Assembly: GCF_017916365.1 (NCBI RefSeq)
Contig: NZ_JAFMSU010000002.1
Location: 558,001-622,000, forward strand
Direction: 5' to 3'
Length of the DNA stretch: 64,000 nt
Origin: Rufibacter roseolus
GTDB lineage: Bacteria; Bacteroidota; Bacteroidia; Cytophagales; Hymenobacteraceae
Shown: piece by piece, positions 49 to 57,559 of the stretch
Numbering within the stretch: the stretch's first letter is position 1
How the letters are laid out: each line of letters opens with the position of its first letter
Notes under the pieces: model-generated
What the model was told of the DNA's origin: nothing
Seen by the model: only the letters and a program-made list of their open reading frames with translations
The model's database searches: none
Made by a program: the position numbers and the translations under genes

Positions 49-106
49 TAAGTCTGCCTGTTTAGGGGCTGTTTTGAGCAAAACAGCCCCTAAACAGGCA
101 GACTTA
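49..106. terminator. Long perfect hairpin, probable bidirectional terminator
   Basis: Two perfectly complementary 27-base arms (49-75 and 80-106) flank a 4-base loop GAGC. The hairpin lies just beyond the 3' end of the minus-strand gene at 151-672 and would also serve a plus-strand gene ending left of the window. Its inner part is one copy of the dispersed 36-bp dyad. Confidence 0.75.
60..95. repeat. 36-bp dispersed dyad element, copy 1
   Basis: Exact match to GTTT-N9-TTT-N4-AAA-N9-AAAC. This is one of the few copies that is also a perfect hairpin; it forms the core of the terminator at 49-106. Confidence 0.7.
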
Positions 107-150
107 TTTATAATCTATGGTGCGGAAATTACCGTTCGTCAAAGATTCTT

Positions 151-672
151 TCAGGATGGCATGTGAATGGATTTCTGTTTGCCTGTTTGCAGCCTTATAT
201 CCTTGACAAAGTCTTCTAACTTCTCCCTGAGCTGGTCTCTGTTCCAAATAATCCTCAAGTGGAAGATTATCAAGAATACAATCCAGGAGCACAGAATAGC
301 AGCCACCGTTAACCAGTTGGCATGTAGCATCAAGCTAATGGCTGAAAACATGGTGAGAAAGAAAATCAAGAAATAAAGCCCATAAATGTTCCTGTTGAAG
401 TAAGGGATTATTTCAGAATCCATACGAGTGCTCAACCTGTCTTGATTGTTTGTTAGGGAAATCACAACCCTCCCTTTGGTTGGTATAGTGACCTCTATTA
501 AGTTATCTCCAGTGATGCTGACTTGGTTGAAGTCAAGAGGAAAGGCGGTGAGTGTTTCTAGTAAGCTTTTCTTTTGATTCTTTTGATGTGAGATATACTC
601 CAGAATCAGTCTCCTCGGTTGTTTAACCTCTAGGGCGAATTGCCTGTGGTAGGTTCTGAATAATTTTCTCAT
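151..672 (-). CDS. Hypothetical protein with two membrane segments
   Basis: A 173-residue protein of unrecognised family. The first 95 residues are soluble and mixed-charge. Two adjacent hydrophobic segments follow at about residues 97-116 and 119-142, then a basic and amphipathic tail ending in MPS. This suggests a helical hairpin in the inner membrane with both termini on the same side; that topology is inferred. There is no signal peptide, lipobox or catalytic motif. It starts with ATG 27 bases downstream of the stop of the secreted hydrolase on the same strand and could be co-transcribed with it. The strong hairpin at 49-106 follows it. Confidence 0.6.
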   Translation of the reverse strand: MRKLFRTYHRQFALEVKQPRRLILEYISHQKNQKKSLLETLTAFPLDFNQVSITGDNLIEVTIPTKGRVVISLTNNQDRLSTRMDSEIIPYFNRNIYGLYFLIFFLTMFSAISLMLHANWLTVAAILCSWIVFLIIFHLRIIWNRDQLREKLEDFVKDIRLQTGKQKSIHMPS

Positions 673-687
673 TAAACTGAACCTTCG

Positions 688-1644
688 CTACTTAACAGAC
701 TTCACAAACGTCACCAAGGCAGGCATGAGCGGTGCGGCCAGCGGGAGAGTAGGATTGGAGTAGGTGCTGATGTTGGGGCTCCGGTCTGAGGTGGTTTCTT
801 TGAGCACGTGGTTCATGTTGTCAACCGTCACCAGTTTGCCTTTGGCTGCCGCACCTGCAAGATAATTGGCGTCTTGCATGCTCACCTGCAGATCGGCCGT
901 TCCCTGTACAACCAATACGGGAATCTTCAGCTTGGCCATCTCTGCCTGCGGATCATACCTGAACCAGGAGATGAGGTACGGTTGTACGCTGGGCCGGAAC
1001 AGGGATGCCAACATGGGATTTACCTCCGGCACGGCTTTTCCTTGGGCAAGTTGATCCAAAATAGGGAAAGCGGCCACTTGAATCATGGGTGGTTGTCCCT
1101 GCAATTGCTGCCGGATGATTTTATCAGCGGACTGTCCGGCGCCGGCGATGGAGATAAAAGCATCGGCATGAGCCTGGCGGGCAGCGATCATGCCAATCAA
1201 AGAGCCTTCGCTATGGCCCAGTACTACCACTTTGCTGAACCGGAGATCTGCCTTCAGTTTCTGTATCCAGGCGGCGGCATCCTGCACGTAATGGTCAAAC
1301 CTCAGATCGAACTCAGACATGGCTGCCTCTTTACTGGCTGCAATACCTCGTTTGTCAAACCGCACCGAGGCAATTCCCTGCGCATATAGGGCCTCGGCCA
1401 CCATTTTCAGGCTGTTGTTTTTCATGGCGGGGTTGTTGCCATCGCGGTCGGTGGGGCCAGAGCCGGAAAGGAGAAGCACTACGGGCACTTTCCCGTCTGA
1501 GGCAGGGGAGAGCAGCGTGCCTTTGATGGTGCCTTTCTGGGTATTCAGGTCAATGGGCACCCCGGCTACCGGCGCTTCTGTTTGGGCATAGGTTTTCATC
1601 AGTACCAAAAAGAGCAGAAGCGTCAGCAGCAGTGTGTTTTTCAT
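688..1644 (-). CDS. Secreted alpha/beta hydrolase
   Basis: A 318-residue serine hydrolase of the alpha/beta fold. Residues 1-20 are a signal peptide ending TYA before Gln, so export to the periplasm is likely. Visible motifs are the oxyanion loop LSGSGPTD (about residues 59-66), the nucleophile elbow GHSEG with Ser145, and a C-terminal NMNHVLK that probably carries the catalytic His. The fold resembles prolyl-oligopeptidase-like and dienelactone-hydrolase-like esterases; the substrate cannot be read. It lies 31 bases downstream of dapA on the same strand. The ATG sits inside a 36-bp dyad element (1636-1671). Confidence 0.85.
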   Translation of the reverse strand: MKNTLLLTLLLFLVLMKTYAQTEAPVAGVPIDLNTQKGTIKGTLLSPASDGKVPVVLLLSGSGPTDRDGNNPAMKNNSLKMVAEALYAQGIASVRFDKRGIAASKEAAMSEFDLRFDHYVQDAAAWIQKLKADLRFSKVVVLGHSEGSLIGMIAARQAHADAFISIAGAGQSADKIIRQQLQGQPPMIQVAAFPILDQLAQGKAVPEVNPMLASLFRPSVQPYLISWFRYDPQAEMAKLKIPVLVVQGTADLQVSMQDANYLAGAAAKGKLVTVDNMNHVLKETTSDRSPNISTYSNPTLPLAAPLMPALVTFVKSVK

Positions 1645-1671
1645 CTGTTTACCTGAAAATGGGCTTAAATC
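1636..1671. repeat. 36-bp dispersed dyad element, copy 2
   Basis: Near match to the pattern, ending AAATC instead of AAAC. The start codon of the hydrolase gene (CAT on the plus strand at 1642-1644) lies inside it at offset 6, almost the same register as in the copies at 4808 and 42159. Confidence 0.55.
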
Positions 1672-1675
1672 AAGC

Positions 1676-2554
1676 TTAGCCTAAAAGTGGAGCGGCAGCG
1701 GCCTGCACGCGTTGTATCAGGCTGGCAGAGGCAGGAGCCAGGGGCAGGCGCACGAAGGGCTCGCAGATACCCGCTTCCTTCAGGGCCAGTTTAATGCCTA
1801 CCGGGTTGGCTTCTTCGTACATGAGCGGGTTGATTTTCCCGAAGGAGCGTTGCAGGGCCCCGGCCTCGGTGAAGTTTCCTTCCAGCGCCAGGCGCGTCAT
1901 GCGGCTGAAAGCTGCTGGGAAAGCATTGGCCAATACTGAGATAATACCATCACCACCTACGGAAATCAACGGAACGGTGTGCATGTCATCGCCGGAGATC
2001 ACCAGGAAACCCTCGGGTCTTTCCTCCAGAATGGTCATGTACTGTTCCATATTGGCGCTGGCGTCTTTGGTCCCGATGATGTTAGGGTGCTGGGCCAAGC
2101 GCAGCGTGGTAGCCGCGGAAATGTTGATACCGGTTCTGCCGGGCACGTTGTACAAAATTACCGGAACCGGAGAGGCATCAGCGATGGCGGTGTAATGCAG
2201 GAATACCCCTTCCTGGGAGGGCTTGTTATAGTAAGGGCAAACCGAAAGGATGGCATCAACGCCGGTGAAGTCTATCTTCTTGAGTTGCTCCAGCACATAG
2301 TGGGTGTCATTGCTGCCGAGGCCGTACACCAGTGGTTTGCGGCCAGCAATACGTTCCTTCGCGAAGGCCAGCAACTGGGCGCGCTCCTCGGGAGAGGTGG
2401 TCACCGATTCGCCGGTGGTACCGTTCACCACCAGGTAATCCACACCATTTTCCAGGTTGAAATCAATCAGTCTCCCGAAGGCTTCTATGTCCACGGAAAG
2501 ATCGGCTTTGAAAGGAGTTACCAAGGCCACACCTGTTCCTCTTAATGCTTGCAT
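1676..2554 (-). CDS. dapA: 4-hydroxy-tetrahydrodipicolinate synthase
   Basis: Condenses pyruvate with aspartate semialdehyde, the first committed step of lysine and diaminopimelate synthesis, in the cytoplasm. The 292-residue product is full length for the family. It shows NGTTGES near the N-terminus, the proton-relay tyrosine in YNVPGRTG (Tyr135) and the Schiff-base lysine in GTKDAS (Lys163). A slightly longer frame begins with TTG at 2572, but the ATG at 2554 gives the usual DapA start MQALRGTGVALVTPF. No other dap gene is adjacent; the secreted hydrolase follows 31 bases downstream. Confidence 0.95.
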   Translation of the reverse strand: MQALRGTGVALVTPFKADLSVDIEAFGRLIDFNLENGVDYLVVNGTTGESVTTSPEERAQLLAFAKERIAGRKPLVYGLGSNDTHYVLEQLKKIDFTGVDAILSVCPYYNKPSQEGVFLHYTAIADASPVPVILYNVPGRTGINISAATTLRLAQHPNIIGTKDASANMEQYMTILEERPEGFLVISGDDMHTVPLISVGGDGIISVLANAFPAAFSRMTRLALEGNFTEAGALQRSFGKINPLMYEEANPVGIKLALKEAGICEPFVRLPLAPASASLIQRVQAAAAPLLG

Positions 2555-2654
2555 GTCTGTATGTTTGTTCAATTTTTAAATCGCGCAAAGATACAGGTTT
2601 GGATCGGTAATTAGTATGCTCTACGAACGTTTGTTCAGGATCAACGGACGAGAT

Positions 2655-2690
2655 GTTTTTGGGGCAACTTTAGGGAAACAGGCTCTAAAC
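2655..2690. repeat. 36-bp dispersed dyad element, copy 3
   Basis: GTTTTT at the left and CTCTAAAC at the right, 36 bases in all; the inner tracts are shifted by one base from the consensus. Its right arm (GGCTCTAAACG, 2681-2691) is inverted in the copy starting at 2979. Confidence 0.5.
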
Positions 2691-2861
2691 GGCTGCAGGT
2701 AGAACTGATGAGAAAGAGCACAAAGCGATAGGGTTTCTAATGGAATTCTGGCCAACAGTTATGATAAAAATCCGGCGGGCTTCAGGTCTGTTTCATTCTG
2801 TTCCCGTGCTGTTCTACTTGGCTATAAGTAAAGGGAGTCTTAATCACTGAACCCCAATTCT

Positions 2862-2923
2862 GAGGCTGTCGCCTCACTGAAGTTGCAAACTTCAGACCAT
2901 GGTAGGTCCAAGTTGAAAACTTG
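2862..2923. repeat. Cluster of three short palindromes, REP-like
   Basis: Three consecutive small hairpins: GAGGC-tgtc-GCCTC (2862-2875), CTGAAGTT-gca-AACTTCAG (2877-2895) and CAAGTT-gaa-AACTTG (2909-2923). Tandem stem-loops in non-coding DNA resemble REP elements moved by RAYT (TnpA-REP) enzymes. No RAYT gene is in the window. Confidence 0.55.
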
Positions 2924-2978
2924 AACCAGGGAAAAACAGCACTTGAACCAGAGAAATTAGAGGAAGAAACAATCTTGC

Positions 2979-3014
2979 GTTTAGAGCCTCTTTGTAGAAA
3001 AACACAACCTGAAC
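2979..3014. repeat. 36-bp dispersed dyad element, copy 4
   Basis: Begins GTTTAGAGCC and ends CCTGAAC, 36 bases. It lies immediately downstream of the response regulator stop codon on the minus strand. Confidence 0.5.
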
Positions 3015-3024
3015 GCGTCTATCG

Positions 3025-3753
3025 CTAAAGGTTCTTGCTTTCCACCCAGCGCATGAAAACCTCTTTGTAGCTGTCCCCGATGGGGATTTCCTGTTCCTTT
3101 ATTTTGATGCGGCCTTTCTCAATGCTTTCAATGTGGGTCAGCGACACGATATAGGAACGGTGCACACGCGCAAAGTCCTGCTCGGGCAGTTTCTCCATGA
3201 TCTTGTTCATGGATAAGAGCGTGATGATCTTGCGGGTTACGGTGTGGATGATGACGTAGTCTTTGAGGCCTTCAATGAAGAGAATGTCTTTGAGGTTTAC
3301 CCGCAGGGTCTTGTAATCTGCCTTCACGAAGATGAAGTCTTCGCTCTCTGTTTGGGGCAATATTGCCTGCGAAACAGCCGGGCCGGCGGGTTGCAGTTGG
3401 GCGCGCTCATAGACTTTGTTTACCGCCTTGAAGAACCGGTCGAAAGGGATGGGCTTGAGCAGGTAATCCACCGCATCCAGGGTGAAACCATCCAGCGCGT
3501 ACTGCGGATAGGCGGTGGTGAAAATAACGGCCGGGCGGTTCGAGAGCGACTGCACAAACTGCACGCCCGTGATCTCTGGCATCTCAATGTCCAGGAACAG
3601 CAGGTCTACCTGTTGCCGCTGCAAAACCGCCATGGCCTCTAAGGCGCTGGAGCAGGTCTGGACGAGCTGCAGGAACGGGATTTTACCTATGTAGGAGCGC
3701 ATGATGTCCAGGGCGAGCGGTTCATCGTCAATGGCGAGGCAGGTCAGTTGCAT
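3025..3753 (-). CDS. LytR/AlgR-family (LytTR) response regulator
   Basis: A 242-residue two-component regulator. Residues 1-120 form the receiver domain, with the acidic pair DDE at 9-11, phospho-acceptor Asp55 in LFLDIEMPE and the conserved lysine in YLLKPI. Residues about 140-240 form a LytTR DNA-binding domain with the typical RVHRSYIV segment. LytTR proteins bind pairs of roughly 9-base direct repeats. The gene starts 17 bases after the kinase stop, so the two are one operon. A matching pair of direct repeats is upstream of the divergent ABC transporter (4935-4964). Confidence 0.92.
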   Translation of the reverse strand: MQLTCLAIDDEPLALDIMRSYIGKIPFLQLVQTCSSALEAMAVLQRQQVDLLFLDIEMPEITGVQFVQSLSNRPAVIFTTAYPQYALDGFTLDAVDYLLKPIPFDRFFKAVNKVYERAQLQPAGPAVSQAILPQTESEDFIFVKADYKTLRVNLKDILFIEGLKDYVIIHTVTRKIITLLSMNKIMEKLPEQDFARVHRSYIVSLTHIESIEKGRIKIKEQEIPIGDSYKEVFMRWVESKNL

Positions 3754-3770
3754 CTGGTGAAGTTAGCGTT

Positions 3771-4817
3771 TTAAGAAAGTCTATTCAAGGTGAGCTCCGC
3801 GATAAAATCTTGGTTTTCCTGGCGGCAGGTGAAGGTGTGGGCTCCGGGGTACAGTAGCTCCAGGCGCCGTTTCAGGTTCTGCAACCCAATTCCGCCGTAA
3901 TTTTCCGGGGTGCCGCCCAGGGCTTTGATCCTGTTTCTGGTGGTGAAGGTCAGGCCTACGTCCTGAGTACACACCTGCACCTGCATAGGGGCCGTGGAAA
4001 GACCGTGTTTGAACATGTTCTCCACCAGGGGCATCAGGAGCATGGGCGGCAGCGAAAGCCCCGAAACGTTTCCTTGGACCTCCAGCGTGAGCAACTCTGG
4101 TTGCGTTAACCGGAGTCGGTGCAGGTCCAAAAGGTGTTCAACGTGCTCCAACTCGCGGGCCAGGGGCACCACGGGCGTGTTGGTTTCATAAAGTTGGTAG
4201 CGGAGCAGTTGCGAGAGCTTAAGAATGGCCTCCGGGGTAGAAGGTGCGTTCTGGTAAGAGAGTGAGTAGATGTTGTTTAGGGTGTTGAACAGGAAGTGGG
4301 GGTTTACTTGTGCCTTGAGCAAGTCCAGCTCTGTGGTGGTATGCTGCAGTTCCAGTTCCTGGCGCCGCCGCTCGGTGCGAAGGTAGTCGCCGGTGACTTT
4401 TAGGGCTGAGCCCAGGAAGATGTTCATCAGCCCCATCACGCCCAGTTGGATCATGTGGGTCTTATAGTCCAGCATGCTGGGGTGCTTGGCAATCTGCTCG
4501 GCCATTTTAGGGGTGATGCTCGCCTCCTGCGTGATCTGGAATACCTCAATGGGGCTTCGGACCGCCGCAAATAGGGCCAGGGTTGCCACCACCGCCAGCG
4601 CGTAGCCCAGCACATTGCCCTTGGCCAGAATCCGGAGCAGCACAAACCAGTTGAAGTAAAAGAGCGCTAGGTGAAACGCAAGGGTCTGTGCCACATCCAT
4701 GGCTACCCAGGACAAGGGCAGATCCAGCCGGTCAATCCCGAAATGGACCCAGAGTGACAGCCCAAGCAGACTGGTCCACAGCAAAAGGTGCAATAATAGC
4801 GGGAGCTGTTTTTTCAT
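3771..4817 (-). CDS. Sensor histidine kinase, LytS/YehU type (His_kinase family)
   Basis: A 348-residue membrane kinase, partner of the LytTR regulator. Four hydrophobic segments fill roughly residues 5-25, 40-60, 70-88 and 127-147. A short coiled region then leads to the H-box VNPHFLFNTLN with His174, and a C-terminal HATPase domain has an N-box-like VENMFKHG and a GGIGLQN G-box. ATG at 4817 (MKKQLP) directly precedes the first membrane segment; an in-frame ATG at 4850 would add 11 residues without support. The start codon sits inside a 36-bp dyad (4808-4843). The signal sensed is unknown; the neighbouring lantibiotic-type transporter suggests envelope stress or peptides, which is inference. 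Confidence 0.9.
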   Translation of the reverse strand: MKKQLPLLLHLLLWTSLLGLSLWVHFGIDRLDLPLSWVAMDVAQTLAFHLALFYFNWFVLLRILAKGNVLGYALAVVATLALFAAVRSPIEVFQITQEASITPKMAEQIAKHPSMLDYKTHMIQLGVMGLMNIFLGSALKVTGDYLRTERRRQELELQHTTTELDLLKAQVNPHFLFNTLNNIYSLSYQNAPSTPEAILKLSQLLRYQLYETNTPVVPLARELEHVEHLLDLHRLRLTQPELLTLEVQGNVSGLSLPPMLLMPLVENMFKHGLSTAPMQVQVCTQDVGLTFTTRNRIKALGGTPENYGGIGLQNLKRRLELLYPGAHTFTCRQENQDFIAELTLNRLS

Positions 4818-4843
4818 GGTTTTCTCAGAAATAAGCCCAAAAC
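4808..4843. repeat. 36-bp dispersed dyad element, copy 5
   Basis: GTTTTTTCATGG at the left and AAGCCCAAAAC at the right. The kinase start codon (CAT at 4815-4817) is at offset 7, the same register as in the copy at 42159-42194, with which it shares most bases. Confidence 0.65.
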
Positions 4844-4934
4844 TAACCATTCAGCGGAGCTTATCCCGCACAAATCCCAAGAACTAGACCAAGCGGGATT
4901 TTATATCGACGAATGGGTTGAGGGGGAAAATCAC

Positions 4935-4973
4935 GGGGTTGGTCTCTGCAAAAATGGCGTTGGTATAGTTTTG
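4935..4973 (+). promoter_or_regulatory. Predicted LytTR operator and promoter of the ABC transporter
   Basis: Two 9-base direct repeats, GGGGTTGGT (4935-4943) and GGCGTTGGT (4956-4964), are separated by exactly 12 bases, the spacing known for LytTR sites with GTT-N-R-K cores. One base later comes TAGTTTTG (4966-4973), a perfect Bacteroidota -7 element (TAnnTTTG). No good -33 TTTG exists, as expected for an activator-dependent promoter. The ABC ATPase ATG is at 5026. Confidence 0.55.
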
Positions 4974-5025
4974 TTGCGGCAAGCGAAGAGAAGGTGTTCT
5001 TTTGGACTATCCAACCCGGCTGACC

Positions 5026-5988
5026 ATGAAAGAACCGCTCATATCTACCCATCAACTTAGTTGCCGCTATGGCTCCCTGGAGATCCTCAAAGACCTGCAC
5101 CTGAAGATCCCGCAGGGCAGCATCTACGGCTTCCTGGGACCCAATGGGGCCGGAAAAACCACCACCATCCGCTTGCTCTTAGGTCTTATAAAACCGTCTG
5201 CCGGGATCATCCGGTTATTCGGACAGGAATTGGAGCGCCATCGGGTACAGGTATTGCAAAGGGTAGGGGCTCTGATAGAGACGCCCAGCCTGTACAAGCA
5301 CCTCTCGGGGAGAGACAACCTAGAGGTCATGCGGAGGATGCTGGGCCTGAAGAAAAGCCGGGTAGACGAGGTGCTGGGGATTGTACGGCTGCGGCAAGTC
5401 GCCCACCGGCCGGTGAAACAATATTCCCTGGGCATGTGCCAGCGGCTGGGCATTGCGCTGGATTTGCTCTCAGACCCAGAGGTGTTGATCCTGGATGAGC
5501 CCACGAACGGCTTGGATCCCAGCGGCATCCGGGAGATGCGGGAACTGCTCAAAGAACTGAACCAGGAGCACGGCAAGACCATTTTCCTGTCCAGCCACCT
5601 GCTAAGCGAAATTGAGAAAACGGTGACCCATGTGGGCATACTCCACCAGGGACAGCTTAGGTTCCAGGGTAGGGTGCAGGAACTGCAGAAAGCCACGCAG
5701 AGAGCCAGGACTGTTGAGGTGGAAGTGGGTAACGTGTTGCTGGCAAAAGAGATAATACTAAGCCTTGGCCATGCAGTTGAAACCCTGGATACCCATCGGC
5801 TTAGGGTAGCGGTGCAGGAAAAAGAAGAGGCTGCGGCCCTGAACCAGTTTCTGGTAGAAGGCGGGGTGGCGGTTTACAACCTCTCATTTACCGCGCAAAG
5901 CCTGGAGGAGGTCTTCCTTTCCATAACCGAGGCTCCCGCCCTTGATCCTTCTGCCAAAATCCATTTTCAACCTATCCTGCAAGCCTAA
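5026..5988 (+). CDS. ABC transporter ATP-binding protein, BcrA/lantibiotic type
   Basis: A 320-residue nucleotide-binding subunit. Walker A GPNGAGKTT is at about residues 38-46, the signature is the variant YSLGMCQRLG instead of LSGGQ, and Walker B with the D-loop is VLILDEPTNGLD. The roughly 85-residue C-terminal extension is typical of the BcrA/LanF group that drives two-component drug or lantibiotic exporters. The ATG at 5026 is preferred to one at 5002. Its stop overlaps the permease start in the sequence TAATG, so translation is probably coupled. It is divergent from the LytS/LytTR operon, which may control it. Confidence 0.9.
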   Translation: MKEPLISTHQLSCRYGSLEILKDLHLKIPQGSIYGFLGPNGAGKTTTIRLLLGLIKPSAGIIRLFGQELERHRVQVLQRVGALIETPSLYKHLSGRDNLEVMRRMLGLKKSRVDEVLGIVRLRQVAHRPVKQYSLGMCQRLGIALDLLSDPEVLILDEPTNGLDPSGIREMRELLKELNQEHGKTIFLSSHLLSEIEKTVTHVGILHQGQLRFQGRVQELQKATQRARTVEVEVGNVLLAKEIILSLGHAVETLDTHRLRVAVQEKEEAAALNQFLVEGGVAVYNLSFTAQSLEEVFLSITEAPALDPSAKIHFQPILQA

Positions 5989-6767
5989 TGACGACTACTG
6001 CAATCCTTTATGTTCGCAGAGGCCTTTCGGCGGAGGCCTTGAAAATAAAGAACACCTGGGCCCTTTGGCTGCCGGTGCTGGCGCCACTCTCGGTGGTGGG
6101 CATGACTTTCCTGGTGTTTTTCTTCAAGGGGCACCTGATCCTGAAGCCCGGTTCTGATCCGTGGTTTGCCTGGGCGGGCAACAATTTCATGGCGTCGGCG
6201 CAGTTGCTGGTGCCTTTGTTTTTGGCCTTGCTCACAGCCCTGGTAAACGGCACCGAGCACCAATCTGGTGGGTGGAAGCAGTTGTACACCTTGCCGGTAC
6301 CCAGGTGGTCGGTGTTTCTGACCAAGTACCTGCTGCTGCTGGCGCTGGTGAGTTTGGCTTATGTCACGTTTTGGTTGGGCATGTTGGGCGGCGGATACCT
6401 GTTAGGCTGGCTCCGGCCTGAGTTGGGTTTCCAGAGCTACCACCACGTGCAGAGCATCAGCCTGGGCGCCTTCCGGATTCTGTTGGGCTCGCTCTCCATC
6501 TTCACACTGCAGTTTTGCCTCAGTTTCAGGTTCAGGAGCATCGGGATGAGTATTGGCCTGGGCATTCTGTTCACGATGGCTTTCCTGATTGGGTCGCGAT
6601 GGGAGCACATCGGGTACTATCCTTACAGCTGGCCCACTTTCTCGGCGATGGCTTTCCAAGCTAAAGGTGCGACATGGTTCGTGCCGCAGATGTGGTACAG
6701 CCTGGGCAGCAGCGGTTTGCTTTTCCTGGTAGGCCTGTGGGATTCCTGCCGCCGCGAGATCCTGTAG
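5988..6767 (+). CDS. ABC transporter permease, ABC-2 / lantibiotic-immunity type
   Basis: A 259-residue integral membrane protein with about six hydrophobic segments, partner of the ATPase encoded just upstream (TAATG overlap of one base). The stretch around residues 85-105 (GTEHQSGGWKQLYTLPVPR) matches the cytoplasmic loop seen in LanE/MutE-like and other ABC-2 family permeases. The pair would export, or protect against, a hydrophobic or peptide compound; the substrate is unknown. The stop codon touches a 35-bp dyad-like element starting at 6767. Confidence 0.82.
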   Translation: MTTTAILYVRRGLSAEALKIKNTWALWLPVLAPLSVVGMTFLVFFFKGHLILKPGSDPWFAWAGNNFMASAQLLVPLFLALLTALVNGTEHQSGGWKQLYTLPVPRWSVFLTKYLLLLALVSLAYVTFWLGMLGGGYLLGWLRPELGFQSYHHVQSISLGAFRILLGSLSIFTLQFCLSFRFRSIGMSIGLGILFTMAFLIGSRWEHIGYYPYSWPTFSAMAFQAKGATWFVPQMWYSLGSSGLLFLVGLWDSCRREIL

Positions 6768-6801
6768 TTTGTGCCTCTTTTTCTTAAATCACCTTTAAAA
6801 C
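6767..6801. repeat. 36-bp dispersed dyad element, one base short
   Basis: GTTTGTGCC at the left and CTTTAAAAC at the right with TTT and AAA inner tracts, 35 bases. It starts on the last base of the permease stop codon. Confidence 0.45.
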
Positions 6802-6809
6802 AGACCGGT

Positions 6810-6998
6810 ATGAAAGTTTTATTTACGCTTGGGGTAGGAATGATGGTAGGTTGGGTCTCCGCGTTGTTTGATGCAGAAGGCCAATTGGCCTTGGAGCACC
6901 ACCAGGAGAAAGTAAACCTAAGTATGTACCAGGCTGCAGGCCCGGAGAAAGAGGGACCGGCCAAAAACTGCAGGTTCTTTTCCTTCATCTGGCCTTAA
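6810..6998 (+). CDS. Possible small protein with N-terminal hydrophobic segment
   Basis: A 62-residue frame starting with ATG at 6810, 42 bases after the permease stop on the same strand. Residues 2-20 are hydrophobic and could be a membrane anchor or signal; the rest is polar, ending FFSFIWP. I recognise no family. Its place at the end of the ABC operon is the only support, and it may be a chance frame. Confidence 0.3.
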   Translation: MKVLFTLGVGMMVGWVSALFDAEGQLALEHHQEKVNLSMYQAAGPEKEGPAKNCRFFSFIWP

Positions 6999-7014
6999 TT
7001 TCTGAGTCTCGGGC

Positions 7015-16876: not shown

Positions 16877-16912
16877 GTTTTGAACCTCTTTTGGTAAAAT
16901 CAATCATAAAAC
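16877..16912. repeat. 36-bp dispersed dyad element, copy 8
   Basis: Exact match to GTTT-N9-TTT-N4-AAA-N9-AAAC, standing alone in the long gap between the XRE-like gene and susC. Confidence 0.65.
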
Positions 16913-27618: not shown

Positions 27619-27739
27619 GCGGTCCGGACGGGACTCGAACCCGCGACCTCCGCCGTGACAGGGCGGCATTCTAACCAACTGAACTACCGGACCAACATCC
27701 TCTGGAGACCTGTTGTCCCCGTTTGATGCTGCAAATATG
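27619..27739. repeat. 121-bp direct repeat, copy 1 (tRNA-Asp and promoter)
   Basis: Matches 31819-31939 with three mismatches, at an offset of exactly 4200 bases. It covers the whole tRNA, its leader and its -7 element. Confidence 0.85.
27620..27693 (-). tRNA. tRNA-Asp (GTC), copy 1
   Basis: On the minus strand the cloverleaf is complete: acceptor GGTCCGG pairs with CCGGACC, the anticodon stem is CCGCC/GGCGG with loop CTGTCAC (anticodon GTC), and the T arm contains GTTCGAGT. The discriminator is G and CCA is not encoded. The sequence is identical to the copy at 31820-31893. Confidence 0.97.
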
Positions 27740-28134
27740 TAGGTTTAATTTTTACGATGCAAACAAAAGTGTTCAAAACAGTGAAAATTATCGATCTCAT
27801 TCTGCCGGTCGTTTTGCAGGCCTTTTCCAAAGAAGAGGCTTGAAAAGCGTGGACTAACTGATATCTGATTCTTTACCAGAAGGTTTGGGCTTTGTAGAAA
27901 GCGCAAGCTAAGTCCTTTATCGGGCCTGAATATTTTTAAAGCCTCTTAGCCAATAGGCCCAAAATTTTTTATTTCATCTTTATTCAGAGTCAGAAGGTTG
28001 ACATATTGAAGAAACAGGCAATACAGAATCTGCTTAGAAGCTATAGCAGGTGAAAAGGTGAATAGGCTGAGGCCCTTTAAATTGGTGGCGTTTAGTTATG
28101 GAGGGGATATAGGCGATCTTTTTCTAAAATAGAA
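27694..28134. other. Intergenic region between tRNA-Asp 1 and the 109-residue gene
   Basis: Apart from the tRNA leader and promoter (27694-27763), I see no gene, hairpin or clear repeat. Confidence 0.5.
27732..27763 (-). promoter_or_regulatory. Predicted promoter of tRNA-Asp copy 1
   Basis: On the minus strand TTTG (27760-27763), a 20-base spacer and CATATTTG (27732-27739). The same elements and spacing occur before tRNA copy 2, although the spacer sequences differ. Confidence 0.5.
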
Positions 28135-30501: not shown

Positions 30502-30868
30502 CCAGACCAAAGATAATGAGTGTAATAAGGTGCGATCTACCGGCAGTTGTGGTTTTTACGATGTTTTCTCTTGTTCCGGTAACAAATACGGAGGAGGCCC
30601 GGTAAAATAAAGGGTTATCTTAATAAAAGGTAATAAGCATTGTTCCACTTTTTTTCAAACAGATCCTGATTTTGAAAAACCGCCTTTAAAGCAGAAAGGC
30701 AGGATAAAGCTTTTTTTTAAAAGGAAACCTGTGTTGAGGAAGATCCTGATTAAGGGCTACTTTTCTGAAATAAGGCTTAAAACACAGCACTCCTGCGGCT
30801 GAAAGGTGCAGAAATGGCGGGAGCTGTCCATACTCAAAGTGTATAAGTAAACCCAAAACGAATTTAAG
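30502..30868. other. Intergenic region upstream of the second SDR gene
   Basis: No gene is seen. There is a weak six-base stem GCCTTT/AAAGGC (30682-30700) before a T-rich run, and AGATCCTGATT occurs twice (30661-30671 and 30741-30751). Confidence 0.4.
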
Positions 30869-31818: not shown

Positions 31819-31939
31819 GCGGTCCGGACGGGACTCGAACCCGCGACCTCCGCCGTGACAGGGCGGCATTCTAACCAACTGAACTACCGGACCAACTTCT
31901 TCTGGAGACCTGTTGTCCCCGTTTGATGATGCAAATATG
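31819..31939. repeat. 121-bp direct repeat, copy 2 (tRNA-Asp and promoter)
   Basis: Same orientation as 27619-27739, three mismatches. Outside this block the flanks are unrelated. Confidence 0.85.
31820..31893 (-). tRNA. tRNA-Asp (GTC), copy 2
   Basis: Identical in every base to the tRNA at 27620-27693, with the same anticodon GTC, acceptor stem and uncoded CCA. Confidence 0.97.
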
Positions 31940-36135: not shown

Positions 36136-36187
36136 AAAGAAGTGTTAAGAGGCTGTTTTTCTGAAAGCAGGCTCTTAACACTTCTTT
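36136..36187 (+). terminator. Terminator of the acyltransferase gene
   Basis: Sixteen-base arms AAAGAAGTGTTAAGAG and CTCTTAACACTTCTTT around an 20-base inner part, with T-rich sequence after it. Confidence 0.75.
36144..36179. repeat. 36-bp dispersed dyad element, copy 12
   Basis: GTTAAGAGGCTG at the left, CAGGCTCTTAAC at the right, inner TTT and AAA tracts in place. It forms the core of the terminator at 36136-36187. Confidence 0.6.
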
Positions 36188-36682: not shown

Positions 36683-36741
36683 AAAGCGTCTGCCGTTTAG
36701 AGCCTGCTTTCATGAAACAAGACCTAAACGGCAGACGCTTT
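36683..36741 (-). terminator. Terminator of smc
   Basis: Eighteen-base perfect arms (36683-36700 and 36724-36741), T-rich on the minus strand after the stem, just downstream of the smc stop. Confidence 0.8.
36695..36729. repeat. 36-bp dispersed dyad element, one base short
   Basis: GTTTAGAGCCTG at the left and ACCTAAAC at the right, 35 bases, inside the smc terminator. Confidence 0.5.
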
Positions 36742-50440: not shown

Positions 50441-50496
50441 CTTTTTGTTTTTTGCCTGTTCTTATAAAACTAGCCACAAAACACCGGAAATGAAAA

Positions 50497-50524: not shown

Positions 50525-50552
50525 CAATAAAGGGTTGTCAGTATCGGCTTTG

Positions 50553-50942
50553 TTATTGGTTTGCCGAGTCTCCAGCTGGGGCAGTGGCCGGGGCCGGAGT
50601 AGCAGTTCCCGGTGTAGCGTTTTGCTGCGGGATTGCTGGAGCGGCAGGAGCAGGGGCTGGAGCCGCCTGGCCGGCACGTTGCTCATTAATAGTGCGGTTA
50701 TCAACTCCGCCACCATCATTGACAATAGTATGGGAAGCCAAGGTCAATACAATGATCCCGATCGCGAAACCCCAGGTAAGCTTCTCCAGAAGGTCACCGG
50801 TACGTTTAACACCCATCAATTGGCTGGTGCCGCCGCCGCCAAACTGGCTGGATAAACCGCCGCCTTTGGAGTTCTGGGACAATACCACCAAAACCAACAG
50901 CACGCACAGGAAAATAATTACGCTGATCAGAGCAAGGTACAT
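50553..50942 (-). CDS. secG: Preprotein translocase subunit SecG
   Basis: A 129-residue subunit of the SecYEG channel. Two membrane helices (about 3-21 and 56-73) flank the conserved loop with SQNSKGGGLSSQFGG. After the second helix comes a 50-residue tail very rich in Ala, Pro and Thr (APAPAPAAPAIPQQ), longer than in E. coli but common in Bacteroidota. It starts 7 bases after the upstream TPR gene on the same strand, so the two are co-transcribed. Confidence 0.93.
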   Translation of the reverse strand: MYLALISVIIFLCVLLVLVVLSQNSKGGGLSSQFGGGGTSQLMGVKRTGDLLEKLTWGFAIGIIVLTLASHTIVNDGGGVDNRTINEQRAGQAAPAPAPAAPAIPQQNATPGTATPAPATAPAGDSANQ

Positions 50943-50949
50943 AATTGGA

Positions 50950-52545: not shown

Positions 52546-52613
52546 GGAACTCGTGAATGCATTGCCGCTGGATAGGCAAGCTCAAATTACTAGTTATTAG
52601 GGAAATACAGGAG

Positions 52614-52648
52614 AAAGGCACTGAAATTTATGTTTTCAGTGCCTTTTT
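52614..52648 (-). terminator. Terminator of lptE
   Basis: Thirteen-base perfect arms AAAGGCACTGAAA and TTTCAGTGCCTTT between lptE and the TPR gene, so the TPR-secG pair is a separate unit. Confidence 0.8.
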
Positions 52649-52664
52649 GATCCTGCAAAGATAC

Positions 52665-53201
52665 TTACCAATTTGCTACCGTTTTGGTAAAAACGCTGTA
52701 AATAATGCGTTCTGTGATCTGTCTGATCTGCGCCTGGCTTATCTGGTTGATATCCAGAGAGGGAGGGAAATCGGCGAAACCGGAGAAACTTTGGTCAAAG
52801 TTGTTGGCGGGGTTCTTGGTGTCTGTATAGTTGATCTGCACCACAATAGTCAAACGGTTAGCCCCGGCCTGGTCCAGCCCTATGTTGCTGCCCGTGGGGA
52901 TGTCGCTGCGCTGGATAGCCGCCGGACTAAAAGTATAGCTCAGGATTTGGCCCTCAATCTGTAAATCCCCGGCCTGCGGCAGGATGCGCAGGTTGGTGTT
53001 CCGCTGGAAGTAATCTTTGAAGTCTTCAGTGACAAACTGCTGTAAATTAGCCGGTCCCTGACCAGAGGCATTGTTGAAGTTGGTAATGGAAATGCTTTTC
53101 ACGTCCGGCGAAATGTTGGTGCCAGTAAAGGAATAGCAACCGCTCAGCAGCAAAGGAAGGCAGAGCAGCAAAAAGTACTTCAAAGGGTTATAGATCTTCA
53201 A
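52665..53201 (-). CDS. lptE: LptE-family LPS-assembly lipoprotein
   Basis: A 178-residue outer-membrane lipoprotein that plugs LptD and helps place LPS on the surface. It has a signal peptide with lipobox LLSGCYSF (Cys22), then ISITNFNNASGQGPANLQQ and the end ITERIIYSVFTKTVANW typical of Bacteroidota LptE. The start is TTG at 53201, overlapping the end of the sigma54 activator gene by 14 bases; the next candidate is TTG six codons later. The overlap suggests translational coupling. No lptD is in the window. Confidence 0.87.
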   Translation of the reverse strand: MKIYNPLKYFLLLCLPLLLSGCYSFTGTNISPDVKSISITNFNNASGQGPANLQQFVTEDFKDYFQRNTNLRILPQAGDLQIEGQILSYTFSPAAIQRSDIPTGSNIGLDQAGANRLTIVVQINYTDTKNPANNFDQSFSGFADFPPSLDINQISQAQIRQITERIIYSVFTKTVANW

Positions 53202-54456
53202 GGTCGTATTGTTTTAATTTCCGGTACAAGGTGCGTTCTGAGATGCCCAGGTCTTTGGCGGCGTATTTCCGTTTGTTCCCGTGCTTCTTTAACGCTTTCA
53301 GGATCATTTCCTTTTCTTTATGCTCCAAAGAAAGACTTTCTTCTTCGGTCTCATGGGAAATGTCTTCTACTTTGTCCTCGTATTCCTCTGGTTCGTCCAC
53401 AGAGAGCATGTAGCCATCGCGGCGGTCTGGGGCGCGGTACACGGGTTGCTCATAGGGGCCCATCTCCTCAAACAAATGCCGATTATTCTTAAGAAGTTCC
53501 GCGTCTTCCTGCTGGTGTGAGAGCAGATCAAATACTACCTGCTTGAGGTCGTTCATGTCTTTGCGCATGTCAAAGAGCACTTTGTAGAGCAGGTCCCGCT
53601 CTGAGATGCCGCCGGGACCATCGGCCGTGGCGTTGGGGTGGAAGAGGGCGGGCAATTGGTTCTGCTGCTCCTGCGGCAGGTACTTGCGCAGGGTGGCGGC
53701 GTTGATCTCGCGCTCATACTCCAGCACCGAGATCTGCTCCACTATGTTCTTCAACTGCCGGATGTTGCCCGGGAAGCGGTAGCGCAGCAGTTCCTGCACC
53801 GCATCGGGCAGCAGTGTGATGGGCTTCACGTGGTAGCGCTCTGAGAAATCACTGGCGAACTTGCGGAACAGCAGGTGCGTGTCTTCGCCGCGCTCGCGCA
53901 AAGGCGGCACCGTAATAGGGACAGTGTTGAGGCGGTAATACAGGTCCTCGCGGAACTGTCCGCGCTCCACTGCCTGCATCAGGTTCACGTTGGTGGCCGC
54001 TACCACGCGCACATCGGTCTTCTGCACTTTGGAGGAACCTACCTTGATGAACTCGCCGTTTTCCAGCACGCGCAAAAGGCGGGCCTGCGTTCCGAGGGGC
54101 ATTTCCCCGATCTCGTCCAAAAAGATGGTACCGCCGTTCGTGACCTCAAAATACCCTTTGCGGGCTTCAGCGGCGCCAGTGAAAGAGCCTTTCTCGTGCC
54201 CGAACAATTCTGAGTCAATGGTACCCTCTGGAATGGCGCCACAGTTAATGGCAATGAACTGGCCGTGCTTGCGCGGGCTCAGGTGATGGATGATCTTGGA
54301 GAAGGATTCTTTTCCGCTACCGCTTTCGCCGGTAATGAGCACGGTCATATCAGTAGGGGCTACCTGCACCGCCACCTGAATGGCGTAGTTCAGCAAAGGC
54401 GAGTTCCCGATGATGCCAAACCGCTGCTTCACCGACTGTATCTCTATATCACGCAT
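53188..54456 (-). CDS. Sigma54-dependent transcriptional activator without receiver domain
   Basis: A 422-residue bacterial enhancer-binding protein. It starts directly with the AAA+ domain: Walker A GESGSGKE (43-50), the sigma54-contact loop as GSFTGA (90-95, usual form GAFTGA), Walker B IFLDEIGEM (Asp114, Glu115) and an arginine-finger region FREDLYYRLN. A linker of about 120 residues leads to a C-terminal Fis-type helix-turn-helix (ILKALKKHGNKRKYAAKDLGISERTLYRKLKQY). Without a receiver or sensor domain its activity must be set by partner, level or linker. Lies between miaB and lptE. The groESL promoter 3 kb away is a candidate target. Confidence 0.93.
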   Translation of the reverse strand: MRDIEIQSVKQRFGIIGNSPLLNYAIQVAVQVAPTDMTVLITGESGSGKESFSKIIHHLSPRKHGQFIAINCGAIPEGTIDSELFGHEKGSFTGAAEARKGYFEVTNGGTIFLDEIGEMPLGTQARLLRVLENGEFIKVGSSKVQKTDVRVVAATNVNLMQAVERGQFREDLYYRLNTVPITVPPLRERGEDTHLLFRKFASDFSERYHVKPITLLPDAVQELLRYRFPGNIRQLKNIVEQISVLEYEREINAATLRKYLPQEQQNQLPALFHPNATADGPGGISERDLLYKVLFDMRKDMNDLKQVVFDLLSHQQEDAELLKNNRHLFEEMGPYEQPVYRAPDRRDGYMLSVDEPEEYEDKVEDISHETEEESLSLEHKEKEMILKALKKHGNKRKYAAKDLGISERTLYRKLKQYDLEDL

Positions 54457-54459
54457 GAA

Positions 54460-54551
54460 GTAGATTTGAAGATTAGAAAATGTGGAGATTTGGAAATGAG
54501 TGAGTGGGAGACTGAATTTTCAAACCTCCACATCTCCAAATTTTCTCATTA
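54460..54551. repeat. Purine-rich repeat, imperfect inverted copies
   Basis: Units like AGATTTGGAGATGTGGAG run forward at 54460-54500 and inverted at 54513-54551 between miaB and the sigma54 activator gene. The same degenerate unit recurs at 62599-62665 and 62800-62843. Confidence 0.5.
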
Positions 54552-55982
54552 TAAAACTGGTTCCCCGAACAAGGTGCCTACGGAGCAGTCAGTGATGAGC
54601 ACGTTTACGTAGTCGCCTTTCTGGAAGTGCATTTTGGGGAAGATCACTACTTTGTTCTGGTCGTTGCGGCCGCTGAGCATCTCGTCTGAGCGCTTGGAGA
54701 AGTTCTCCACCAGCACCTTTGACACTTTGCCTACATCCAACTTATTCCGCTCCAGAGAGTAGTGGCGCTGCTTGTCAATGATTTCTTGCAGACGGCGTTT
54801 TTTCGTTTCCAGCGGAACATCGTCTTGAAGTTTGCGGGCCGCCAGGGTGCCGGGGCGCTCAGAATAGAAGAACATGTACGCGTAGTCATACTGCACGTAA
54901 TCTATCAGCGAGAGGGTGTCCTGGTGCTCTTCTTCGGTTTCCGAGCAGAAGCCGGCAATCATATCGGTGGAGATTCCGCATTCCACGCCCAGGATCCGGC
55001 GGATGGCGTCTATGCGCTCCATGTACCAGGCACGGTCATAGGTGCGGTTCATAAGTTCCAGCACGCGAGAGTTGCCGCTCTGGGCCGGCAGGTGGATGTA
55101 TTTGCAGATGTTGTCGTACTTTTTCATGGTGTACAACACGTCATCCGTGATGTCTTTGGGGTGGGAGGTGGAGAACCTTACGCGCAAGTCTGGGCTGATC
55201 AAGGCCACCATCTCCAGTAGTTGGGCAAAGTTCACGCGCTCCAATCCGTCCTCAGAAGCCCATTTATAGGAGTCCACGTTCTGGCCCAGCAAGGTCACTT
55301 CTTTGTAGCCCTGGTTGACCAGTTCCTGCGCCTCACGCACGATGGAATGGGCATCTCTGGAGCGCTCACGGCCTCGCGTGAATGGCACTACGCAGAAAGA
55401 GCACATATTGTCGCAGCCCCGCATGATGGAAACGAAGGCACTCACGCCGTTGCTGTTCAAGCGGATTGGGTTGATGTCGGCGTAGGTTTCCTCGCGGGAG
55501 AGGAGCACGTTCACGGCTTTCTGGCCGCCGTCTACTTCATTGATGAGCGAGGGAAGGTCGCGGTAGGCATCCGGGCCAACCACCAGATCCACCATTTTCT
55601 CTTCTTCCAGCAGGTTCTTTTTCAGGCGCTCGGCCATGCAGCCCAACACGCCCACCACCAGACCGGGTTTCTTTTTCTTCAAATGCTGCAGCTGCGTAAG
55701 GCGGTGCCGCACGGTCTGCTCGGCCTTCTCCCGGATAGAGCACGTGTTCAGCAACACCAGGTCCGCGTTGGTCACTTCTGACGTTGTGTCAAAGCCGGCC
55801 TCAAACAAAATGGAGGAAACGATCTCACTGTCAGAGAAATTCATCTGGCAGCCGTAGCTCTCAATATAAAGCTTGCGCTGACGTCCGGTGTTGGAGTCAA
55901 CCGTTACTTTGGTGTCACACGCGGCTGCCTGCTCCGGCGTGCGGTTATCAATGAAGTCTAAGTCCAGAATGGGTGCGTGCAT
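54549..55982 (-). CDS. miaB: tRNA-2-methylthio-N6-dimethylallyladenosine synthase
   Basis: A 477-residue radical-SAM methylthiotransferase that adds the 2-methylthio group to i6A37 of tRNAs reading UNN codons. The N-terminal UPF0004 domain holds three cluster cysteines ([26 protein letters not shown]). The radical-SAM core has [17 protein letters not shown] and the C-terminal TRAM domain ends [22 protein letters not shown] at 55982 is chosen over 56003. The MiaE gene, for the next step of the pathway, is at 62849-63442. Confidence 0.96.
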
Positions 55983-56054
55983 AGCTTGCAAGTAAAAACA
56001 CAAAGATAAGCATATTCATGCGCTTATGACAGAATGGCAGGCAATATTTTATAG

Positions 56055-56090
56055 GAAAAGCGCCTGTTCTCTGAAAAACAGACGCTAAAC
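56055..56090. repeat. 36-bp dispersed dyad element, copy 19
   Basis: Right half CAGACGCTAAAC fits the family; the left end GAAAAGCGCC is degenerate. GCGCCTGTT and AACAGACGC form a hairpin downstream of pabB. Confidence 0.45.
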
Positions 56091-56138
56091 GAACATCCCG
56101 GTAGTCCAGAGCAAAAACAGGTTCAGTACCAAACAGGC

Positions 56139-57431
56139 CTAAGGCTTCTCCAGCACGTTCCTGATGGCGGCAGCTTTTAAAAGGCATTCCTGGTATTCCT
56201 GCTCCGGGTCTGAGTCATAGGTGATGGCGCTTCCTACCTCAAAGGAAAGGTAACCCGTATGGGCATTGTACTGCAGGCTACGGATAACCACATTGAAGTC
56301 AAAATCCCCGTTGGGCAGGAAATACCCGAAGGAACCGGAGTAAAGGCCACGCCTGATTTTTTCGTACTGCTCAATCAGTTCCAGCGCCCTGATCTTCGGG
56401 GCCCCTGTCATGCTACCCATCGGGAAGGTCGCTTTGAGAACTTCCACGGCATTCACGTCTGCTGAGATCTGGCCAGTCACGGTGGAGATCATCTGCCAGA
56501 CGTATTGGAACCCGTACATGCCAAACAGTTCCTCTACCTGAACGGTACCGGTCTGGGCCACCCGATTCAGGTCATTCCGCACCAGGTCCACGATCATCAT
56601 GTTCTCGGCCTGTTCCTTCTCGCTCGTCGCCAGAAGGGTTCTCTGGCGTTGGTCGTCAGCAGGAGTGGAGCCACGGCGGATGGTGCCTTTGATAGGCTGG
56701 GAAATGAGCAGGTTGTTTTTCTTCTTTAAGAATCTTTCCGGGCTGGCACAGAGCAAGTAACGATCATCTAGTTTAAGAAAGCCTGCGAATGGGGTAGGTG
56801 AAGCTGCGTTCAGTTTCCAGAAGAGGGGGAGTGGGTTCAAGGAAACATTTTCGGCGTAGAACTCCTGGCAATAATTCACCTCATACACATTCCCTTCAAG
56901 GATGTGCTGGCGCAGACTTTCCACGTCATGCAGGTAATTCTCCCGGGAAACCCGCGGTTGCGTTCTGATGCTGTTTTGGGAAAAAGTGCCGGAAAACGGA
57001 GTGCGTCCGATGGCTTTGGCAATGGCCTCCGGTTCCTCTACGCTGGAGTGAATGGTCACGGAATCCTCGCCCCAGAGAAGCCAGGTCTCTGGATGGAAAA
57101 AGTACAGTTCCGGAAATCCTACGTAATCTGGGTGCTGGCTGTGCAGTTGCTCCAATCCGTTTTTCAGATCGTAGGTCAGGAACCCGAATAACGGGGTATC
57201 TCTCTCCTGACTAAGATTTTCCTGCAGCGCAACCCAGGATGTGATATCCCCGGGACTTTTATGCCGGCGCATGCCCAGCATGTTTGCAAAAGCGCCGTGC
57301 CGATAAGGTATGTTGTTGGGTTCATAGTAGGCCACTACCTCATGCTGCCGGGTTGTCCAGGCCAGGGCTTGCTGTTTCCATTGGAGAACAGAAACCGGGA
57401 GTGAGGCAAAAAGCAAAGTCAACTGGTGCAT
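56139..57431 (-). CDS. pabB: Aminodeoxychorismate synthase component I / anthranilate synthase-like
   Basis: A 430-residue chorismate-using enzyme. It probably aminates chorismate to 4-amino-4-deoxychorismate for folate synthesis. The chorismate-binding domain shows SPERFLKK, QPIKGTIRRG, DLVRNDLNRVA, FPMGSMTGAPKIRALELI and the final SAITYDSDPEQEYQE. The PIKGT form favours PabB over TrpE (which has PIAGT). No pabA or pabC is adjacent. ATG at 57431 is preferred to a TTG at 57461. Confidence 0.88.
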   Translation of the reverse strand: MHQLTLLFASLPVSVLQWKQQALAWTTRQHEVVAYYEPNNIPYRHGAFANMLGMRRHKSPGDITSWVALQENLSQERDTPLFGFLTYDLKNGLEQLHSQHPDYVGFPELYFFHPETWLLWGEDSVTIHSSVEEPEAIAKAIGRTPFSGTFSQNSIRTQPRVSRENYLHDVESLRQHILEGNVYEVNYCQEFYAENVSLNPLPLFWKLNAASPTPFAGFLKLDDRYLLCASPERFLKKKNNLLISQPIKGTIRRGSTPADDQRQRTLLATSEKEQAENMMIVDLVRNDLNRVAQTGTVQVEELFGMYGFQYVWQMISTVTGQISADVNAVEVLKATFPMGSMTGAPKIRALELIEQYEKIRRGLYSGSFGYFLPNGDFDFNVVIRSLQYNAHTGYLSFEVGSAITYDSDPEQEYQECLLKAAAIRNVLEKP

Positions 57432-57523
57432 GGTGGCAACGGAAAAGAAATAAGGCGACAAATATAAGGATATTCTCCGTGGTGGTTTGCTGCCTGCTTT
57501 GGTGCCAAACCAACCTTAATCCT

Positions 57524-57559
57524 GTTTAAAGGCGGTTTTCGGGAAAACAGGGCACAAAC
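57524..57559. repeat. 36-bp dispersed dyad element, copy 18
   Basis: Exact match to GTTT-N9-TTT-N4-AAA-N9-AAAC, in the gap between pabB and the zinc-ribbon gene. Confidence 0.65.

Follow-up and report, generated by a model that had tools for sequence, protein, structure and literature searches.

A 40-bp four-box palindrome dispersed at gene ends in Rufibacter: a candidate architectural mark of the chromosome

Introduction

The chromosome of Rufibacter roseolus (Bacteroidota; Hymenobacteraceae) is studded with a symmetric DNA element of about 40 bp, here called the Rufibacter mark, which we describe from a 64,000-nucleotide stretch of contig NZ_JAFMSU010000002.1 (positions 558,001 to 622,000 of the forward strand; the whole stretch is referred to as the window) and trace through the genus. 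The mark is defined by T and A tracts at fixed spacing, gathers at gene ends, keeps its places between species and is spelled differently from one species to another. On this comparative evidence each copy is very probably recognised by a protein. We put at roughly one half the probability that the sites form a chromosome-wide architectural boundary mark at the ends of transcription units, read by a single candidate protein specific to Rufibacter.

Dispersed sets of recognition sites are already known as a kind, but for each named family that we tried, the Rufibacter set fails the tests that define it. Literature searches, which covered few subscription papers, returned no account of such repeats in Rufibacter or the Hymenobacteraceae. 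Should the architectural reading be true, a large share of Rufibacter gene ends would carry sequence-defined boundary elements, and transcription-unit insulation and nucleoid folding would therefore become testable site by site.

Results and Discussion

An abundant element confined to one genus

An earlier note, made from the letters of the window without database searches, had described a fixed 36-base frame (GTTT and AAAC at its ends, TTT and AAA within) at about 20 places, held that it exceeded chance and found no named family to fit it. All eight exact copies of the 14-base frame that it listed are present at their positions. The mean count in ten second-order Markov simulations was 0.0 and the reversed pattern is absent; genome-wide, the source genome (G000) holds 523 exact copies and none of the reversed control, so that counts stand far above simulated sequence, as the note supposed. 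The comparison set comprised 16 Rufibacter genomes, 188 further genomes of the family and 394 more sampled across the phylum. Exact copies number 186–1561 in each of the 15 other Rufibacter genomes, against 0–3 per genome in the rest of the family and 0–4 in the wider sample.

Sites were then called with a 40-bp symmetric weight matrix at a threshold of 14 bits, applied to 464 kb of the source genome, with a second large scan of 900 kb of genome G007. The 464 kb contain 268 sites (simulated sequence yields about 1 and reversed sequence 6), a density of about 0.57 per kb which extrapolates to some 3,000 sites in the source genome; 235 of them reach at least 20 bits, a level attained by no reversed or simulated sequence. 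The G007 scan returned 362 sites and none in the reversed control. Within the window there are 33 sites of 14.0–42.8 bits. These include all 20 of the places listed earlier, and the real set is larger by 13, lying between genes (starting at 27811, 28480, 30657, 30748, 50447 and 62704) or within called genes (7842, 12401, 13395, 37937, 43729, 52219 and 56962). Those at 30657 (14.0 bits) and 13395 (14.2 bits) stand at the threshold, and a matrix retrained on the whole sample retains 31 of the 33.

In 29 loci of other genera the matrix called 4 sites, and the reversed control gave 2. In dyad counts for loci of Pontibacter, Hymenobacter and the Algoriphagus group, none of the 14 dyads at the head of the list is a comparable one with T/A tracts; the leading dyads there are GC-rich and may reflect shared conserved genes. 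After family tests and literature searches, the view that no named family fits still stands.

Four boxes on a fixed spacing

The conserved unit consists of four CYGTTTT boxes, a direct pair and an inverted pair, with successive tract centres separated by 11, 9 and 11 bp; its consensus is C Y G T T T T R G G S C T G T T T T C N N followed by its mirror. The boxes of one half occupy positions −1 to 5 and 10 to 16, a period of 11 bp, and the arms between the tracts are G/C-rich. The 36-base frame of the earlier note is therefore real, but the unit extends outward to about 40 bp, with C-Y before GTTT and R-G after AAAC, and its inner tract is usually four T or A rather than three. Two 35-base versions had also been listed; that at 36695 keeps its start, but the one given at 6767 begins at 6766. 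Because copies chosen by their left half only, or by their outer ends only, still display the remaining tracts, the pattern is not an artefact of selection. The sites take no consistent direction with respect to genes. DNA curvature has been linked to phased A-tracts (PMC3940949).

The conserved feature had been said to be the spacing of the tracts and not an RNA stem, and for most copies this is upheld: in the source genome the arms pair at the level seen when arms are shuffled among copies, and between species no other part is as constrained as the tracts. An RNA stem was accordingly rejected for these copies and kept for a composite minority. Copies in which all 9 of 9 pairs form number 11 in the source genome against 0.2 in shuffled sets, and are concentrated in composite stems. 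When the 16 genomes are pooled, 53 of 729 sites lie within longer palindromes with complementary flanks that resemble terminator stems; the arms are paired in 40 of these 53 and in 143 of the other 676, and a run of T or A lies alongside 29 of the 53 against 132 of the 676. This extended symmetry, with arms mostly paired, gives some 7% of the sites the appearance of having been built into intrinsic terminators.

Sites gather at gene ends

Genes were called with a simple purpose-written caller (coding fraction 0.76–0.80), so the intergenic shares that follow are approximate. A location at gene boundaries and between genes, as first proposed, holds for most sites, but in the 464 kb of the source genome 56 of the 268 are centred within called genes and 212 between them; in G007 the corresponding figures are 25 and 337 of 362. 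Gap occupancy is about 80% for convergent gaps (seven stretches, reconstructed from rounded fractions), about half for tandem gaps and about 40% for divergent gaps, and G007 repeats this order, with convergent highest and divergent lowest. Sites also hug the ends of the genes: 44 of 52 sites in convergent gaps lie at most 60 bp from a stop codon, and 68 of 129 in tandem gaps either overlap the upstream stop or follow it by no more than 60 bp. Tandem gaps of 30–60 bp are occupied more often (0.41, n = 37) than those of 60–100 bp (0.16, n = 38), as though such gaps had contracted around their sites.

The sites are spaced more evenly than under a null in which gap type and length are preserved (coefficient of variation, CV, 0.82 against 0.94 ± 0.04), and spacings below 600 bp number 88, against 109.5 ± 6.3 in the gap-matched null. 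The long site-free stretches of the source genome are not foreign islands, in that the proteins checked there include GldL/M/N, PorP/SprF and prolyl-tRNA synthetase.

The one plasmid examined in full presents a different picture. Plasmid 1 of R. tibetensis (G009:C2, 235,438 bp) has 2 sites in the 230 kb scanned, equal to the reversed control, where 112 are expected from the 39 found in 80 kb of the R. tibetensis chromosome. Scans of 20 kb each of two extra contigs gave 1 site in G013:C2, for which a traM-like match suggests a plasmid, and none in G000:C4. The mark seems to distinguish chromosomal from plasmid contigs in Rufibacter. The first 7.5 kb of a 12.5-kb 'plasmid 2' of R. tibetensis (G009:C3, NZ_CP012645.1) hold 23S and 5S rRNA, dihydroorotase and glycosyltransferase genes together with three sites, and contig G000:C5 has three sites at corresponding places; NZ_CP012645.1 looks like a chromosomal, rRNA-flanked fragment mistakenly closed.

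Conserved places, diverging spellings

Alignments with R. hautae (G004) covered 25 of the 33 window sites and those with genome G003 covered 19; the site is recognisable in 24 and 18 of these respectively. Base identity was taken from ungapped intergenic sites (11 for G004 and 6 for G003; gapped, coding and unaligned sites were excluded). The tracts are identical at 140 of 154 positions in G004 and 78 of 84 in G003, or 91–93%, compared with 151 of 198 and 78 of 108 for the arms; the central four bases drift, with 20 of 44 and 12 of 24 identical. For comparison, identity at the four-fold degenerate sites of that region is 0.661 and 0.544. Sites inside genes behave alike: third codon positions in their cores are identical at 71 of 84 in G004, against 2713 of 3920 elsewhere in those genes (p = 0.0018), and at 54 of 72 against 2177 of 3502 in G003 (p = 0.027). 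The genes concerned are ordinary ones (a member of the SMC family, phosphoenolpyruvate (PEP) carboxykinase, an M1 peptidase and others). By these sequence comparisons the tracts are shown to be under purifying selection, third codon positions of the in-gene sites included.

Conservation of place extends across the genus, so that the positions of the frame are conserved between species as they are between copies. In 68 genome pairs with at least five gaps in common, which are not independent of one another, a site was found in both members of 319 shared gaps, in one member of 112 and in neither of 290, and in 264 one-to-one pairs the median difference in distance from the neighbouring gene was 3 bp. 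A recognisable site follows the accA stop codon by a few bases in 16 of 16 Rufibacter genomes and in none of 15 relatives from other genera, as judged by eye.

The spelling at these places is a matter of species. Per-species consensus sequences (G001, G002, G008, G010–G012 and G015 being represented by 14–20 kb each) range from 22.8 to 52.1 bits of information: that of G013 is CCGTTTTCGGGCTCATTTCC, that of G014 and G007 is CCGTTTTTGGCCTGTTTTC, that of G005 is CCGTTTAGGGGCT-TTTTTC, and those of G000, G003, G004 and R. tibetensis (G009) retain little beyond the tracts. G013 uses its own spelling at the same gaps as other species. Since the places are conserved and the consensus is specific to the species, the set therefore changes in step and in place. 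If the architectural reading is right, closely related species with unlike dialects at shared places would offer a natural experiment on the joint change of a protein and thousands of its sites.

Readings of the mark

The earlier note had favoured protein recognition of DNA or the relics of a small mobile palindrome, and the first of these fits what was found: most arms are unpaired, the tract spacing is kept and the tracts are the most constrained part. On the architectural reading the four boxes would lie on about one face of the helix, and the putative reader might be a tetramer, or a dimer placing two reading heads on each arm, and might bend or wrap the site. Sitting at the ends of transcription units, such a protein could serve both as a boundary and as a nucleoid-organising element, for example by holding transcription-driven supercoils, and drift in its specificity would give rise to the species dialects. 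For E. coli, a role of HU in insulating transcription units has been proposed (PMC4992867); a sequence-specific protein insulating at fixed gene-end sites would, if true, be a new form of HU-type insulation. A more ambitious version, which we hold only tentatively and think rather doubtful, is that a genus-specific protein would read thousands of 40-bp palindromes at transcription-unit ends, missing from plasmid DNA and co-changing their spelling in place, as a chromosome-identity code; this would amount to a class of bacterial boundary element without a described counterpart.

Several observations weigh against the architectural reading. No HU, Y1 transposase, secretion ATPase, ParB helix-turn-helix (HTH) protein or MatP binder special to the genus emerged from searches of 29–39 genomes each: the HU search, made with PF00216 only, gave one strong match per Rufibacter genome, the same as in the other genera searched; PF17762 (ParB HTH) matched once in each of the 16 Rufibacter genomes, which is not special to the genus; and MatP was found in 0 of 29 genomes. 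Nor did 26 basic soluble proteins from the 900 kb of G007 include an obvious candidate, a look that excludes little because its crude filter was applied to less than a quarter of one genome. About 12 bits suffice to find a few thousand sites, and the observed content is far higher, an excess not predicted by simple binding-site selection; to shift thousands of sites together through selection on each one is also demanding. Even spacing is not everywhere, with a CV of 1.04 in the 900 kb of G007 (a figure without its own null), and long spacings (above 3 kb) match the null, at 88 against 86.5. Finally, the arms are no more conserved than alignable flanks (0.763 against 0.823 in G004 and 0.722 against 0.804 in G003), so that the tracts alone stand out clearly.

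Known DNA-binding systems share parts of this pattern. Sites of the HU and IHF type are likewise about 36 bp long, symmetric and furnished with phased A/T tracts, and the 9-bp spacing of IHF/HU kinks is like that of the inner tract centres of the Rufibacter mark. HU sites differ in that the Rufibacter mark has a far stronger sequence preference, and most genomes, in and outside Rufibacter, have one ordinary HU-family gene. The sites of ParB (parS), Noc and MatP (matS) are also dispersed chromosomal palindromes with one reader protein, and the TTTC/GAAA flavour of the Rufibacter centre resembles parS and Noc sites; the mark departs from all three in its spacing, in numbering thousands of copies rather than tens and in not being confined to one chromosomal region in the stretches scanned, and the single ParB of Rufibacter is an ordinary one. 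Akin in distribution is the GCTTAT(N)5AAGCG motif of A. ebreus, one of several spaced intergenic motifs brought to light by genome scans, with about 100 copies, mostly intergenic, more frequent in convergent than in divergent gaps and unexplained in the available text (PMC5217627). That motif has another sequence and far fewer copies, and comes without comparative or selection data in that text (PMC5217627), in which neither 'Bacteroid' nor 'Cytophaga' appears in the main part.

The strongest rival to the architectural reading, although we consider it unlikely, is that the sites are recognised in DNA uptake or some other form of transfer and accumulate by molecular drive, preferred fragments being imported and recombined. 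The shift of dialect at fixed places would then be biased conversion toward a drifting receptor preference, and a mark kept by molecular drive explains both the dialects and the excess information more easily than the architectural reading does. The thousands of copies both inside and between genes, the near-absence from R. tibetensis plasmid 1, the dialects at conserved places and the copies tied to terminator stems all suit this explanation, as does the high information content; each of these features has been described for uptake sequences or would be expected of them. The uptake sequences known to us are short and non-palindromic, which counts against it given a 40-bp palindrome; those of the Neisseriaceae and Pasteurellaceae (DNA uptake sequences, DUS, and uptake signal sequences, USS) are short asymmetric words, unlike the four-box Rufibacter unit, and the Rufibacter mark further departs from them in its strong gene-end bias. 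PF00437, the ATPase of type IV pili and type II secretion, scored above the cut-off in none of the 16 Rufibacter genomes, 8 of which gave weak partial matches; with no match above the cut-off, the pilus-based machinery of known users of uptake sequences is missing. DUS and USS do resemble the mark in having many lineage-specific copies, dialects, copies in and between genes and some inverted copies at terminators, and in the Neisseriaceae, dialects are described together with permissive placing, copies within genes and inverted pairs at terminators (PMC3630211, available text). A true transfer mark would mean a large palindromic self-recognition signal in a phylum without a pilus of the known kind.

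That the sites end transcription at gene 3' ends, as RNA hairpins or as roadblocks of bound protein, would agree with the preference for gene ends and convergent gaps, with the 53 sites in terminator-like stems and with the site after accA, where several Pontibacter have an ordinary-looking terminator (by eye). In a first test on convergent gaps of the source genome, intrinsic terminators were fewer where a site was present (9 of 39) than where it was absent (13 of 24); the exclusion vanished in gaps of at least 120 bp, searched with a longer window, in G000, G007, G013 and G014 (all p ≥ 0.18), and replacement of other terminators was rejected. The arms of most copies are unpaired, only 53 of 729 sites lie in longer palindromes and 29 of those have the T/A run expected of a hairpin with a U tract, and the core places T before A, the opposite of a terminator. 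Sites conserved inside coding genes, such as that of the SMC family member, and the occupied divergent gaps also speak against termination, which we regard as distinctly unlikely. An operator of an ordinary global regulator controlling neighbouring genes is the most improbable of the readings weighed here. Its palindromic, protein-like recognition would fit, and genome-wide site sets are known for some regulators, but promoter-rich divergent gaps are avoided and convergent ones preferred, the sites stand near stops and not starts, and they occur in most neighbourhoods whatever the gene function.

There remains the other suggestion of the earlier note, a mobile palindrome like repetitive extragenic palindromic (REP) sequences or miniature inverted-repeat transposable elements (MITEs), spread by a REP-associated tyrosine transposase (RAYT, Y1 transposase) or another transposase and now decaying. 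The mark is dispersed, REP-sized and mostly intergenic, genomes with high information look homogeneous, RAYT-like genes occur in 15 of 16 Rufibacter genomes and 16 of 18 such genes have a site no more than 700 bp away, a count without a control for ordinary genes. REP elements, like the mark, are small high-copy intergenic palindromes that prefer convergent and tandem gaps (PMC3733652, from its available text). Yet G007 has no Y1 match and 607 exact copies, other genera have a Y1 gene without the motif, the mark does not seem to depend on such a gene, and positions are conserved genus-wide; moreover most copies show no pairing constraint, and the tracts are under selection. The GTAG/CGTC tag of REP elements was not found: the unit is symmetric, ending in C-Y-GTTT and AAAC-R-G, and has no tag tetranucleotide at one end. 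Comparison of orthologous gaps for presence or absence, as the earlier note had proposed, showed no 40-bp length step, for only 5 of the 112 one-sided cases differ by 30–50 bp, and none of nine inspected alignments of one-sided gaps contained a clean insertion with intact flanks. With the same gaps occupied across species, the suggestion of a mobile relic falls away as very unlikely. The RAYT-like Y1 proteins are about 190 amino acids long and number 1–6 per genome in the 15 genomes (for example L217 2884–3474; loci L216–L233).

Sites and other features of the window

The 33 sites are listed below by window position, without strand, with their matrix scores; 'extra' marks intergenic sites beyond those listed earlier.

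60..95, exact-frame site inside a longer palindrome, a composite terminator-like stem, 42.8 bits
1636..1671, 4 bp beyond a stop, with minus-strand genes on both sides; conserved in both G004 and G003, 30.0 bits
2655..2690, intergenic, 29.9 bits
2979..3014, intergenic, 10 bp past a stop, 23.0 bits
4808..4843, in a divergent gap; conserved in G004 and G003, 24.7 bits
6766..6801, in a convergent gap, at a stop codon, 30.5 bits
7653..7688, exact-frame site filling a short tandem gap, 38.7 bits
7842..7877, within a short-chain dehydrogenase gene, 21.3 bits
10197..10232, exact-frame site in a convergent gap, 27.4 bits
12401..12436, within an M1 peptidase gene, 26.5 bits
13395..13430, weak site in the same M1 peptidase gene as 12401; lost in G003, 14.2 bits, at threshold
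16877..16912, exact-frame site, intergenic, 30.7 bits
22491..22526, at a gene's stop codon, tandem gap, 31.9 bits
23989..24024, at a gene's stop codon, tandem gap, 28.4 bits
27811..27846, in a convergent gap (extra), 24.6 bits
28480..28515, intergenic (extra); degenerate in G004, 19.2 bits
30657..30692, weak intergenic site (extra), 14.0 bits, at threshold
30748..30783, intergenic (extra), 34.5 bits
33079..33114, exact-frame site filling the 48-bp gap after accA, 39.1 bits
36144..36179, in a convergent gap, inside a longer palindrome, a composite terminator-like stem, 31.2 bits
36695..36730, in the same convergent gap as 36144, near the other gene's stop; palindromic flanks, 28.7 bits
37937..37972, within an SMC-family gene; conserved in G004 and G003, 27.5 bits
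40411..40446, in a divergent gap, 29.6 bits
42159..42194, exact-frame site at a gene boundary, 32.6 bits
42919..42954, exact-frame site at a gene boundary, 31.1 bits
43729..43764, within a PEP carboxykinase gene, 22.8 bits
48150..48185, in a convergent gap, 36.7 bits
50447..50482, intergenic (extra), 32.9 bits
52219..52254, within an open reading frame of 531 amino acids without a Pfam match, 32.6 bits
56055..56090, degenerate intergenic site, 17.7 bits
56962..56997, within a chorismate-binding enzyme gene, 29.7 bits
57524..57559, exact-frame site, intergenic, 35.3 bits
62704..62739, intergenic (extra), 29.8 bits

The sites at 36144 and 36695 each lie about 25 bp from a stop codon and have complementary flanks specific to the gap, as if there were one per gene end. 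The accA neighbourhood of the window is most similar to that of R. hautae (98%) and then R. roseus (93%). An Rfam scan of the window brought only two tRNAs to the gathering score, both genes on the minus strand (27620–27693 and 31820–31893) and of equal score, 70.4 bits. The stretch near 27.6 kb aligns to several places in the accA region of relatives, which suggests a local duplication.

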